64,000 nucleotides of DNA from positions 992,001-1,056,000 of the forward strand of contig NZ_BROD01000001.1 in assembly GCF_024345225.1 (NCBI RefSeq). The letters are read 5' to 3'. The DNA comes from Clostridium sp. TW13. Its GTDB lineage: Bacteria; Bacillota; Clostridia; Clostridiales; Clostridiaceae. Below the pieces are notes generated by a model, which worked only from the letters and a program-made list of their open reading frames with translations, searched no databases and was not told where the DNA came from. Shown one piece after another: positions 34,072 through 38,883 of the stretch. Position 1 is the stretch's first letter. Every line of letters begins with the position of its first letter. A program made the translations under genes and the position numbers.

Positions 34072-36423
34072 TTAGTTATAGATATCAGAGAATTCAATTC
34101 GTATAACTTCAGAGTTACTTTTATTTAGATTATAATCACTGACTGAAGTTTTATCATATGGTAAAGTCTCATTTGGAAGTTTGATTATAAATTCAGTTCC
34201 TTCATTAGGTTTACTGATTACATTTATTGTACCATTTAAAAGTTCTACCAAGGATTTCACTAATGAAAGACCGACTCCACTTCCTTCTCTATTTCTTGAT
34301 AGTGATTTATCTACTTGTACAAATTTTTCAAATATAGCTTCTTGCTTTTCTATAGGGATACCTATACCTGTATCTTTCACTGAAATCACTACATAATCAT
34401 TTGGACAATAGATATTAACTGTAATGTTCCCGCCAGCAGGTGTAAATTTTATGGCATTAGATAATAAATTAAGTATGATTCGCTCTAGAATATTTGGATC
34501 ACTAGCTACAATAGATTCTTCTACTTCAGTATCAAAAATAATAGAAAGTCCTTTATTTTCAACGTAGTCAGCAACAGATAAAACTATACTTTCTAGTATG
34601 TTTATGATGTCTATATTTTGCAAATCTAAAGGAAAGTTTCCATAATCAATTTTATTTATGTCTATAAAATTATTTATAATTCGAGTAAGCCTATAACAAT
34701 TTTGTTTCATTATATAGGGATATTTTTTTAGCTTATGAAGGTCAATTTTATCATTATTATTATTTTTTGTTGCATTTTCAACCACTTGAAGAGCACTGAA
34801 AATTACATTTACAGGAGTTCTTAATTCATGCGATAGATTTGTAAAAAATTCCATTTTTAATTTGTCATAATATCTAAGTTCCGCAATTATCTTTTTATTT
34901 TTTTCATTTGCCTTATGTTCCGTTATGTCTCTCCCAATTAACACTAAACCTCTTGGAGTTTTATCTTCATTAAATAATGGAACTCTTATAATATCGTAGA
35001 TTTTATTAATATTTTTTCTTTGATCAAGTATAGTTTCTTCAGTTCTATAAACATTACCAGACTCCCAAGCTTTACTATCATTATTTGTTATAGAGGATGG
35101 ACTAATTAATTCGTCAATAGTCTTAAGTTTATAATCCTTTTCTTTAATATTTAACAAGTGCAAAAATGGTTCATTAATTTCTAATATCTTACCATTAGGA
35201 TCGTTAAAATAGATTATATCAGGGGTGGAATTTATTATTGTTTTTAATAAACTCTCACTATTTATTAATAATTTCTTAGTATTTTTAAGTTTGCCTATTA
35301 TAACTAATAGGAAGATTATTATTAAAATGAGTATTGATGCAAATCCAATAGAAAAATATATAATTGCTTGTTTGGAAATCTTATAAGTGGTTGATGGCAT
35401 ATTTATTATCTCAGAACCTTTTGGCAAAGATTGTGTATTTATATTAAAACGATTTAATTGATTATAATCAAATACATAATTGTGTGAATTATCAACTATG
35501 GCTGGTATATCTGATGGCTTTTCTCCGTTTAAAATTCGTATGGTCATATCACCAATATTCTCACCAAGTTTTATGCCATGTGTGAGCATTCCACCAACAA
35601 TACCATTATTCATATATGAATAACCTATAGCATATACAGGCAATGGACAGTTCTTGAAAAGTGTATTAGTAGTATTTGAAATTGAAATAGGATCATGTTG
35701 ATTATTAATAAATTGAGTGCCTATAAAAATCACGGTATTGCTAGATAATTTATCAATTTTTTCTTTTACTCTATTAATGTCAGTATCCGTGCAATATGTA
35801 AAATCTACTTTACTTGAAGATGATAATTTATCTGATATTGAGCTGTAAAATATATTACGTTGACTTATTATAAAAAAATGTTTTGTATTAGGATGTAGTT
35901 TTAATGCTATATTAATTGTATCTTTATAGTCTTCACTTTTATATAATCCTGTAAAAAGGATATGATTTTTTAATGTTGTCCTTCTTGATTGATCGATGGC
36001 GCAAAATAGTACTGGAGTATTAGGAAATAAGTCGTTTGCATACTTGTCTAAAAAATCCACAGCATCATTGCTAATAGCAATGATAGCATCAAATTTAACT
36101 GTTTTATATTTGTATTTATATAAATTGTAAAGTATATTATAATGTTCAGCTGAGTGATAAACGCTTGAATCCATATATTCAACATTTAAATCTACATTAA
36201 TGTTATCTTTCTTAAGTTTTGATTCAAGACCGGATATTATTTGGTCATTCCAATTATTAGTGTTAAATCCTCTAAGAGTATTTCCTTTGCTTAAAGAATT
36301 TATGACAAGTATTTTCTTAGGGGGACTGTTCTCAGCAAATGCATCTACTTGAAATAAAAATATATTAAAAATAATAATCAATATATAAATAAAAAACCTA
36401 GAATTTAATTTGCGGCTTTTCAT
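34072..36423 (-). CDS. Orphan hybrid sensor kinase with ABC-substrate-binding-like sensory domain and PAS
   Basis: A 783-residue kinase. A signal/anchor helix (about 8-29) is followed by an extracellular domain of the ABC_sub_bind (PF04392-like) type (about 35-330: KKILVINSLSKGN, FDAIIAISNDAVDFL, NTPVLFCAIDQ). A transmembrane helix (about 340-365) leads to a PAS domain (INSTPDIIYFNDPNGKILEI), then HisKA with the phosphohistidine in FFTNLSHELRTPVN and HATPase with NLLSNAIKFTPAGG, DTGIGIP and GSGVGLSLVK. GGAGGTTACT precedes ATG 36423. No response regulator is adjacent. The ligand is unknown; nucleobase or amino-acid-like molecules bind related domains. Confidence 0.88.
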   Translation of the reverse strand: MKSRKLNSRFFIYILIIIFNIFLFQVDAFAENSPPKKILVINSLSKGNTLRGFNTNNWNDQIISGLESKLKKDNINVDLNVEYMDSSVYHSAEHYNILYNLYKYKYKTVKFDAIIAISNDAVDFLDKYANDLFPNTPVLFCAIDQSRRTTLKNHILFTGLYKSEDYKDTINIALKLHPNTKHFFIISQRNIFYSSISDKLSSSSKVDFTYCTDTDINRVKEKIDKLSSNTVIFIGTQFINNQHDPISISNTTNTLFKNCPLPVYAIGYSYMNNGIVGGMLTHGIKLGENIGDMTIRILNGEKPSDIPAIVDNSHNYVFDYNQLNRFNINTQSLPKGSEIINMPSTTYKISKQAIIYFSIGFASILILIIIFLLVIIGKLKNTKKLLINSESLLKTIINSTPDIIYFNDPNGKILEINEPFLHLLNIKEKDYKLKTIDELISPSSITNNDSKAWESGNVYRTEETILDQRKNINKIYDIIRVPLFNEDKTPRGLVLIGRDITEHKANEKNKKIIAELRYYDKLKMEFFTNLSHELRTPVNVIFSALQVVENATKNNNNDKIDLHKLKKYPYIMKQNCYRLTRIINNFIDINKIDYGNFPLDLQNIDIINILESIVLSVADYVENKGLSIIFDTEVEESIVASDPNILERIILNLLSNAIKFTPAGGNITVNIYCPNDYVVISVKDTGIGIPIEKQEAIFEKFVQVDKSLSRNREGSGVGLSLVKSLVELLNGTINVISKPNEGTEFIIKLPNETLPYDKTSVSDYNLNKSNSEVIRIEFSDIYN

Positions 36424-36657
36424 AGTAACCTCCATAGAATAATTATAAATTTCAATCAATTCAAAAACAGAATTTAACAAAACAATATCTAACAAAAAAT
36501 ACTATTTAAATGTATATTATCACTAATTTTCCATACATTCAATGGATTTTCTTTCTGAGTATAAAATATCATGAATTATTATACTAATAAGTTATAAAGC
36601 CTGGGCTTAAGTGTAAAAAGATGTAGAAATAGAATATATTTTAGCATATGAATATTA

Positions 36658-36708
36658 TTGCCAAATGAATTCTACAGATGTAGAATCAAAATATATTCTA
36701 CATCTGTA
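36658..36708 (+). promoter_or_regulatory. blaI promoter with two BlaI/MecI operators
   Basis: TTGCCA (36658-36663), 17 bases, TAGAAT (36681-36686). TACAGATGTA (36673-36682) and TACATCTGTA (36699-36708) both fit the BlaI/MecI operator TACA-N2-TGTA and lie across the -10 and start point, 26 bp apart. The remaining upstream gap back to 36424 shows only AT-rich sequence. Confidence 0.85.
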
Positions 36709-36722
36709 GAGGAGGTGAGAAA

Positions 36723-37103
36723 ATGAAAAAAGTTTCTAAAATATCTGATTCTGAATGGGAGGTAATGAAAGTTGTGTGGGATCACTCACCAATAACATCC
36801 AATAAAGTAGTTGAAATATTGAAACCCAATACAAATTGGAATCCATCAACTATTTATACGTTGATTAGTAGGCTTGTAGAGAAGAAGGCTATTGAAATTG
36901 AAGAAGGTTCATTTCCATATATTTTGAGACCTTTAATAACAAGAAAGGAATGTTCAAAGAGAGAGTACTTATCATTTATTAAAAAGGTTTATGATGGTTC
37001 ATTAAATCTTATGATATCTAATGCAGTTGAGGATCATGAACTATCTGATACTGAGATTGAAGAACTGAAAAACATTCTTGATAGAAGTGAGGACAGGGGG
37101 TGA
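36723..37103 (+). CDS. blaI: BlaI/MecI-family repressor
   Basis: A 126-residue penicillinase-repressor family protein. The winged helix (about 5-75) has ISDSEWEVMKVVWDHSPIT, NPSTIYTLISRLVEKKAI and the wing EEGSFPYILRPL. The C-terminal helical dimerisation region (about 80-126) normally carries the cleavage site recognised by the BlaR1 pathway. AGGAGGTG precedes the ATG. Two TACA-N2-TGTA operators overlap its own promoter, so it represses itself and the BlaR1-like gene 4 bp downstream. No beta-lactamase or penicillin-binding gene is adjacent. Confidence 0.92.
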   Translation: MKKVSKISDSEWEVMKVVWDHSPITSNKVVEILKPNTNWNPSTIYTLISRLVEKKAIEIEEGSFPYILRPLITRKECSKREYLSFIKKVYDGSLNLMISNAVEDHELSDTEIEELKNILDRSEDRG

Positions 37104-37107
37104 TATT

Positions 37108-38883
37108 ATGTGTAATTTGATGATTTTTTTTGATTGGATAATAATATCATCTGTTTCGGCAAGTGTACTTATAGGAATAATTTTATTAGTAAAGCTAATT
37201 GTTAAAGATAGGCAAAGTCCAAGATGGCATTATTGCATTTGGTTTATATTAATGATTAGGTTGATGATTCCATATGTACCACACACCTCAGTTAGTATAT
37301 TTAATTTGATTTCTCCTTTAACCAATAAGATATTAGTAGAATCAATAGAGTCACGGATAAAAAATCCTGAAAATGTAAATCTAAGTAATGAAACAAAAGG
37401 AAATAACGTAATACGTAAAGATCTTAACACAATTAATAAAATAGAGAAAACTAATAAAAATTTCATTGTCATTTTGAAAAATTACTTTATGATAATTTGG
37501 TTAATGGGAGTTGTTACGTTTTTAGTTTACACTATTATTGCAAACTTTAGACTATTTATCAGAGTTAAAAATAGTAGTGTGAAAAATACAGAAGGGATTT
37601 CTTCAATAGTTAATGAATGTAAGTCTGCTATTAAGATAAATAAAGATGTATCAGTAATATTAACAACAGCAGTGTCATCACCATCTCTTTTAGGCTTTAC
37701 TAAGCCAATTATACTTTTCCCACAGGATATACTAAAGACATTAAAAAGAAAAGAATTGAATCATATAATTTTACATGAGCTTTCTCACTATAAGAGAAAG
37801 GATAATATCGTAAGTTGGATGGTTATATTCTTAAAAGCTTTGCATTGGTTTAATCCTATAATTTGGTATGGGTTTTATAAAATGCATGAGGATTGTGAAA
37901 TAGCCTGTGATGCCAATGCAATGTCATGCATAAACAAAGAAGATACTTTAGAGTATGGATATACAATTATACATTTAGTAAATATAATTTCAAAGAGGCA
38001 AACAACTCTAGGGACGTTAGGAATTTTGTCAAGTAAGTCAGGAGTAAAAAGGAGGATTATCATGATATCAAGGTTTAATGCTGATAAGCATAACAAGAAA
38101 AATAAATTTTCTGTTGTAGGAGGCTTAATTATATTAACCTTAAGTTGTATTTTACTAACTAATGCAAAAAGCAGCATAGCTTATGCTAACAAAATAGTAC
38201 AATCAGATGTTAAGAGCACTATAGATGTGAAAGATATAAAGTATGAGAATTTTGATGGCAAGATGATGATTATATCCAATTCTAAGAAAGTGAGTGTTGG
38301 ATATGCATTAAATAATTCAAAAGTCTATGAAACTACAAGTGAAATTGCTAAGAAGGAAAATGCTCTAGCTGCAATAAACGCAGGAGGATTCAATACTGAT
38401 AATTTACCTTGTGGTTTTATTATTAAAGATGGGGAGCTTGTGTACAAACAGGAAGATGAAGTAAATAGATATAATACAGTTGGAATTGATAAGAATGGGC
38501 TTCTTGTAATAGGTAGATATACTTATTCACAATTAAAAAATATGCAGGTTAAAGAAGCAGTAGGTTTTGGCTCAGAAGTTATAAGAAATGGTAAAATTTC
38601 AGAAGTAAATAATTCTAATTTAGGGGTAGGCCCTAGAACTGCCATAGGGCAAATGAAAGATGGGAAGGTAGTATTTCTTGTTATAAATGGTAGAAGTGAT
38701 ACTTCAAAAGGAGCTACAGTTAAGCAGGTAGCTAATGTATTACTAAAGTATGGAGTGGTAAATGCAGCTTTACTAGACGGAGGAAATTCGTCAACTATGT
38801 ATTATAATGGTAGCGTAATTACTCATATAAATAATTCAAATGGAGAACGTGCAATTCCATCTGCATTTTTAGTATTACCATAA
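37108..38883 (+). CDS. BlaR1/MecR1-like M56 metalloprotease fused to a phosphodiester glycosidase (NAGPA) domain
   Basis: A 591-residue membrane protein. Residues 1-350 are the BlaR1/MecR1 M56 module: four transmembrane segments and a zinc site H223-E-L-S-H227 with E264 in HEDCEIACD. A helix near 337-352 exports the C-terminus. In BlaR1 that part is a penicillin-binding sensor with an S-x-x-K motif; here residues 375-591 instead look like a NAGPA/phosphodiester-glycosidase domain (NAGGFN 424-429, VGPRTAIG 507-514, NGRSD 527-531, LLDGGNSSTMYYNG 555-568). GGGGGTGAT precedes the ATG. It most likely senses or acts on a wall glycan and relieves BlaI repression. Confidence 0.88.
   Translation: MCNLMIFFDWIIISSVSASVLIGIILLVKLIVKDRQSPRWHYCIWFILMIRLMIPYVPHTSVSIFNLISPLTNKILVESIESRIKNPENVNLSNETKGNNVIRKDLNTINKIEKTNKNFIVILKNYFMIIWLMGVVTFLVYTIIANFRLFIRVKNSSVKNTEGISSIVNECKSAIKINKDVSVILTTAVSSPSLLGFTKPIILFPQDILKTLKRKELNHIILHELSHYKRKDNIVSWMVIFLKALHWFNPIIWYGFYKMHEDCEIACDANAMSCINKEDTLEYGYTIIHLVNIISKRQTTLGTLGILSSKSGVKRRIIMISRFNADKHNKKNKFSVVGGLIILTLSCILLTNAKSSIAYANKIVQSDVKSTIDVKDIKYENFDGKMMIISNSKKVSVGYALNNSKVYETTSEIAKKENALAAINAGGFNTDNLPCGFIIKDGELVYKQEDEVNRYNTVGIDKNGLLVIGRYTYSQLKNMQVKEAVGFGSEVIRNGKISEVNNSNLGVGPRTAIGQMKDGKVVFLVINGRSDTSKGATVKQVANVLLKYGVVNAALLDGGNSSTMYYNGSVITHINNSNGERAIPSAFLVLP

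Follow-up and report, generated by a model that had tools for sequence, protein, structure and literature searches.

A BlaI-linked M56 receptor with an NAGPA domain as its putative sensor in Clostridium sp. TW13

The closest described systems are BlaR1/BlaI and MecR1/MecI of Staphylococcus and Bacillus. The locus analyzed here has in common with them membrane helices, an M56 gluzincin protease with the HExxH and ExxxD motifs, a C-terminal sensor related to an enzyme, a BlaI repressor with TACA-N2-TGTA boxes, and apparent self-regulation. According to excerpts of two reports, the BlaR1 sensor is class-D-like and is deacylated more slowly than the enzymes (PMC7593790; PMC9834060). In contrast to BlaR1 and MecR1, the putative sensor of our locus is an NAGPA (phosphodiester glycosidase) domain rather than a class-D-like one, and there is no adjacent beta-lactamase or PBP gene; unlike BlaI and MecI, the repressor has Ala at P1'. 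PetP/PetR of Synechocystis likewise pairs a BlaR1-family protease and a BlaI-family regulator with a non-beta-lactam signal; it differs in that the signal is copper and the targets are photosynthetic, and the accessible part of the report mentions no NAGPA domain (PMC7896320). At the level of repressor and operon, the locus also resembles BlaI_1845 of Clostridium thermocellum, for which the available part of the source supports as a target only its own blaI-blaR1 operon, with further genes of uncertain function, although the binding motif differs from the one found here (PMC8457756). Finally, the putative sensor shares its fold and motifs with NAGPA, the mannose-6-phosphate uncovering enzyme, and with bacterial DUF2233 proteins (6pki, 3ohg), but it is fused to a membrane protease and has Asn at the place of one near-invariant Asp.

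The window is the whole stretch of 64,000 nucleotides of Clostridium sp. TW13 DNA that was analyzed, and the features of the blaI-receptor operon are collected in Table 1. Pfam identified a Penicillinase_R winged helix in the repressor (3.6e-30), which also matched MecI (8.2e-21). The exact 14-bp TCTACANNTGTAGA occurred twice in the 4.64-Mb genome, both times at the promoter of this operon; the centers of the two boxes are 26 bp apart, and the boxes jointly form a 40-bp inverted repeat. The BlaI partner with two TACA-N2-TGTA operators that the earlier note had described is thus borne out. Promoter-like consensus matches were found 20 times in the region against 20.2 expected, so such a match alone says nothing about function. 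A tandem box pair was also unique to the receptor operon in genomes G113 and G140.

Table 1. Features of the blaI-receptor operon and positions of c2 genes (window positions, except where a locus is named)
Feature	Position	Strand	Evidence
Promoter-like site of the blaI-receptor operon, TTGCCA-N17-TAGAAT	36658..36686	+	Consensus scan, 10/12 matches
BlaI operator O1, TCTACAGATGTAGA, overlapping the -10	36671..36684	.	Exact TCTACANNTGTAGA
BlaI operator O2, TCTACATCTGTAGA	36697..36710	.	Exact TCTACANNTGTAGA
BlaI/MecI-family repressor, 126 aa	36723..37103	+	Pfam PF03965, 3.6e-30; MecI alignment
M56-NAGPA receptor gene, 591 aa	37108..38883	+	ORF, domain scan, alignment of fusions
M56 metalloprotease domain, residues 14-320	37147..38067	+	Pfam, 9.8e-63
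Zinc motif HELSH of the receptor (H223-H227)	37774-37788	+	Alignment of 11 fusions
E264 codon of the receptor, zinc ligand	37897-37899	+	Alignment of 11 fusions
NAGPA (phosphodiester glycosidase) domain, predicted extracellular, residues 372-591; Pfam core 418-589	38221..38880	+	Pfam, structure comparison, model
N527 codon of the receptor	38686..38688	+	Asp in 45/47 stand-alone NAGPA and 14/15 aligned sensors
c2 members	L050 4189-5220; L053 2890-3930; L054 4466-5491; L051 4365-4772		

Pfam divided the receptor into Peptidase_M56 (residues 14-320, 9.8e-63) and NAGPA (residues 418-589, 3.5e-41), the latter scoring 141.7 bits against a cut-off of 25. The HExxH and ExxxD motifs of the M56 zinc protease are present (H223-E-L-S-H227, E264, D268), and H223, H227 and E264 are invariant across 11 aligned fusions, in agreement with the earlier description of an M56 half with intact HELSH and E264. 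The generic NCBI BlaR1 model gave the receptor 214.7 bits, under its 400-bit cut-off; the alignment covered receptor residues 12-387 and ran to position 365 of the 585 in the model, leaving the sensor part unmatched. Pfam, the BlaR1 model and Foldseek found no transpeptidase or class-D-beta-lactamase-like sensor in the receptor, and NAGPA instead. By sequence comparison with solved structures, the C-terminal half matched NAGPA entries and the N-terminal half matched S. aureus BlaR1. The AlphaFold2 model of the receptor had a mean pLDDT of 59, with ten-residue blocks ranging from 64 to 92 over the NAGPA domain; Foldseek placed NAGPA 6pki first (6.1e-17) and returned BlaR1 8exq at 4.5e-7. The structure prediction proposed earlier therefore recovered the NAGPA fold, which, as a correction of detail, begins at about residue 372. 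By analogy with BlaR1 topology, the NAGPA domain would face the outside. The earlier reading of the C-terminus as NAGPA-like and not of the beta-lactam-binding domain type holds on the Pfam match and on the lack of a transpeptidase domain. Its motifs need one amendment: the NAGPA domain stands, but the family motif is a near-invariant "DGR", for which the window's copy has NGR, with N527.

We then compared the C-terminal tails of other M56 proteins. In a sample of 94 tails, drawn by family motifs and so no census, a transpeptidase domain was present in three; other tails carried M23, SpoIIP, NPCBM, kelch, LRR and several DUFs. Tails of fewer than 60 residues (n = 13) and one further short tail lay outside the sample. 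Non-penicillin sensors are therefore ordinary among the tails sampled. The earlier note had presented the receptor as one in which the penicillin sensor was replaced; the NAGPA architecture and its link to BlaI stand, given the recurrent fusions and the six operons described below, but the picture of one odd receptor is misleading. The M56 loci L080-L153 comprise receptors with many other outward domains, of the kinds just listed, a wide and unstudied set of sensors.

A survey of domain architectures, as the earlier note had suggested, revealed at least 16 M56-NAGPA fusion loci in 15 of 206 family genomes by whole-protein search and domain scan, a lower bound because six candidates were scored per genome. 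Fusion-bearing species include Clostridium rhizosphaerae, C. brassicae, C. tagluense and C. bowmanii, and a BlaI gene lies upstream of the receptor gene in 15 of the 16 loci, one of these being a fragment. In the M56 tree the fusions, which had been defined from their domains prior to inspection of the tree, formed three groups: the window's receptor with that of C. rhizosphaerae; the tagluense-type receptors with those of C. brassicae and G126; and three distant fusions. Forcing the 12 near fusions together cost 141 log-likelihood units (AU p 8.7e-67), and forcing all 15 together cost 229 (AU p 1.2e-4), in a test that left out 13 loci (fragments, duplicates and long branches) and on a tree in which partial copies of the same fusion loci were labelled "other". 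By this sequence-based test, a single origin of the M56 parts of the fusions was rejected. Domain exchange after one origin would give the same picture, and on either reading the M56-NAGPA combination arose more than once. The closest non-fusion relative, L017, is 48% identical over the match and has a different tail. One fusion, L066, has an in-frame stop. At L067 and L032 (G126) the NAGPA domain is without its central part, yet the frame is still open and the BlaI boxes still come as a pair. The M56-NAGPA gene at L063 (G084:C51) has a BlaI box and a MerR-like gene upstream, with its own blaI absent; a second copy with blaI lies elsewhere in that genome.

At six fusion loci, the receptor gene is followed directly by a gene for a membrane-anchored NAGPA protein and then by a gene of a family that we call c2. 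Among the M56 loci with enough sequence, an NAGPA gene lay directly downstream of 6/14 fusion receptors vs 0/59 other M56 genes (Fisher 1.8e-5, uncorrected for kinship). All six linked operons fall within one genus group (g6) and are kin to each other; their NAGPA genes belong to at least three NAGPA lineages, on starred branches, so the pair entered the operon, or was exchanged within it, more than once. The NAGPA-then-c2 pair is also found apart from receptors, at 4/4 stand-alone NAGPA genes in the window's genome and at 18/21 in control genomes, the 21 being what was left of 24 NAGPA matches once two long proteins and one match with no clear frame were set aside. In Clostridiaceae, c2 is almost always directly 3' of an NAGPA gene, and the two members scanned have no Pfam family. 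The c2 model (mean pLDDT 81) is a helix-anchored beta-propeller with WD40 and other propellers as top Foldseek matches, and we therefore refer to c2 as a predicted membrane-anchored beta-propeller.

Next, we searched the genome for further targets of the repressor. The locus holds the sole M56 gene and the sole BlaI gene of the 4.64-Mb genome; of the genome's five NAGPA domains, one belongs to the receptor. The four NAGPA-propeller pairs of the genome are unlinked to the blaI operon, and a BlaI-type box lies before no more than one of them: a single TTACAAATGTAA between a TATAAT and the ribosome site of the pair at L054. There were 180 core TACANNTGTA matches in the genome, the first 100 of which were listed, and 62 YTACANNTGTAR matches, 50 of them listed; 20 were examined in context, stretches with one-mismatch and tandem sites were likewise inspected, and the majority of the matches inspected lay inside coding sequence. 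Tandem TACANNTGTA pairs occurred at five places vs none for the reversed pattern. Besides the pair at the operon, two were inside coding sequence (panC and a polysaccharide-chain gene), a third was in an inverted repeat about 500 bases before pdxST, and a fourth, with different spacing, preceded a GH74-like gene. Intergenic boxes before the pdxST, GH74-like, S4-domain and acyltransferase genes, among others, were rejected for their other spacing, terminator-like setting or lack of a functional link, as was the box near the NAGPA gene of L006/L051, which sits within an AraC-type gene. At L072 (4764-4792), two TACA-N2-TGTA boxes 19 bp apart precede the gene for a secreted GH74-like protein that carries carbohydrate-binding domains.

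Among the site matches examined in this genome, we thus found no convincing BlaI target beyond the operon itself, and the search for further genes with the BlaI site, raised in the earlier note, yielded only the suggestive single box before the L054 pair. With exact operators unique to this promoter and no other site accepted, self-regulation of the operon is well supported, whereas a wider regulon is not. In C. thermocellum, paired boxes appeared strictly required for BlaI control, as stated in the available part of PMC8457756, which weakens inferences from single boxes. In fusion genomes without a linked pair, a BlaI box was present at 2/17 stand-alone NAGPA genes (1/4 in the window's genome and 1/13 in five relatives) vs 0/21 in the control genomes; this is suggestive only, with too few genes to show a difference and unequal scanned stretches (500, 300 and 200 bases upstream). 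At L204, in the region of G074:C1:4516147, a BlaI box lies in the TTGACA-TATAAT spacer of a promoter whose leader retains a remnant of M56 coding sequence, followed by an intact NAGPA-propeller pair; the receptor operon of G074 is without such a pair, and the pair at L204 is unlinked to it. By its sequence, L204 resembles a former receptor operon from which blaI and the receptor gene have gone and whose control would now fall to the other BlaI.

To judge whether the NAGPA domain is more likely to bind or to process a substrate, we inspected its conserved residues. Most sensor domains retain every motif conserved in stand-alone NAGPA. Position 527, Asp in 45/47 stand-alone NAGPA proteins and in 14/15 aligned sensors, is Asn in the window's receptor; D557 is lost from the L069 and L070 sensors, and L067/L032 have lost the central stretch. 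By hand counts from the alignment, Asp 527 or 557 or the surrounding region was lost in 4/16 sensors vs 2/47 stand-alones (Fisher 0.032), the 16 including L032/L067, whose domain was too short for the sensor alignment and was added by hand. The higher loss among sensors fits binding over catalysis, and substrate processing by the window's copy is doubtful because its near-invariant Asp is Asn. One stand-alone NAGPA protein of the window's genome (L051, 4784-5785) itself departs from the motifs at several residues, with K for R510, A for T511 and T for D527.

We also examined the cleavage site of the repressor. In the MecI alignment, the known Asn-Phe scissile bond maps to N100|A101 of the window's BlaI; among 12 aligned BlaI proteins, the position is N-F in eight, N-L in L056, S-F in L067, A-L in L068 and N-A in the window. 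The Phe at P1' is described as almost invariant in excerpts of PMC9834060, so that cleavage of the window's BlaI, with its odd Ala, may be weak. The Asn-Phe bond is typical of beta-lactam systems, and membership of the BlaI family does not need it. At its autocleavage position, the receptor has Ile or Leu instead of Phe, inside the bulky-hydrophobic preference reported in the same excerpts (PMC9834060).

We propose that the two genes probably form an autoregulated unit that works like BlaI-BlaR1 for a different ligand, with a sensor paralogous to the enzyme under control. BlaI dimers would keep the operon off; the NAGPA domain would bind an extracellular sugar-1-phosphodiester, and the change on binding would travel via the membrane helices to the zinc protease, which would cleave BlaI and derepress the operon. 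The sensor would then stand to the controlled enzyme as the BlaR1 sensor stands to beta-lactamase, a paralogy that has comparative support from the operons of the relatives. The simplest ligand would be a wall-polymer bond resembling a GlcNAc-1-phosphodiester, in line with the teichoic acid or GlcNAc-phosphodiester material suggested in the earlier note; this proposal is drawn solely from the activity of the family in animals and from general wall chemistry. Wall teichoic acid is joined to peptidoglycan via GlcNAc-1-phospho-6-MurNAc. This linkage is of the same kind as the bond in the NAGPA substrate and is therefore a natural candidate for the ligand. Human NAGPA removes GlcNAc from GlcNAc-phospho-mannose, according to an excerpt of PMC12024695.

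We considered whether the receptor could instead be catalytic, the NAGPA domain being an active ecto-enzyme, BlaI self-induction its expression control, and the receptor-enzyme itself the output. The operon is the only well-supported BlaI target in the genome, and the motifs kept in most fusion domains would suit an enzyme; however, the window's copy has N527, three other sensors are without D557 or the central region, and the separate NAGPA enzyme in the operon of six relatives would be superfluous for an enzyme-receptor. We regard a catalytic receptor as unlikely. The window's copy could also be losing function, in its sensor motif, its BlaI cleavage site and its want of a target gene. N527 and the N100|A101 at the scissile position would fit such decay, which is seen elsewhere in the stop of L066 and the deleted core of L067/L032, but here neither reading frame is broken, the zinc motif is preserved and the two operators are exact, and we consider decay quite improbable. 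A beta-lactam response is the best-known role of M56-BlaI systems in the available part of PMC7593790, and the receptor might accordingly be a general sensor of wall stress or beta-lactams with the NAGPA domain merely a wall anchor. That would leave unaccounted for the repeated and separate joining of the same domain; moreover, the transpeptidase domain is absent from the receptor and the operon partners in relatives are an NAGPA enzyme and a propeller, not a beta-lactamase or PBP, and we give this explanation very little credence.

If receptors of this kind carry a copy of the controlled enzyme as their sensor, the Asn in the window's copy might be the counterpart of the slow deacylation of BlaR1, in that a disabled active site would retain the bound ligand. 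NAGPA proteins are widespread among bacteria, and a receptor in the operon of such an enzyme, as in the relatives, would offer a reporter: as the receptor carries an NAGPA domain and shares the operon of the enzyme, its inducer is expected to be identical with the ligand and probably with the substrate of the enzyme. In the literature searched, with most subscription journals outside its scope, we found no description of an M56-NAGPA architecture with BlaI and no paper on the role of NAGPA proteins in Gram-positive bacteria. Judged from its sequence, the locus is a genuine BlaI-BlaR1 variant; new here are the recurrent fusions and the enzyme gene in the operons of relatives. More tentatively, they may point to a repeatable rule, in which a copy of the controlled extracytoplasmic enzyme is fused to the protease as a sensor and the receptor frees the repressor of the enzyme's operon. 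Beta-lactamase and BlaR1 would be one case, and the window's kind a second, reached separately at least two times, with a wall sugar-phosphodiester as the signal. The locus also shows the well-known beta-lactam switch to be one example among receptors of modular build.

The neighbors of the operon that were scanned are a histidine kinase, a CAAX-type protease, a PadR regulator and two proteins with no clear family; the domain scan found no resistance gene among them, as the earlier note had said. The histidine kinase gene adjoins the operon and is divergent from it (window 34072-36495, minus strand), and its product has an outer domain like an ABC substrate-binding protein and a PAS domain.
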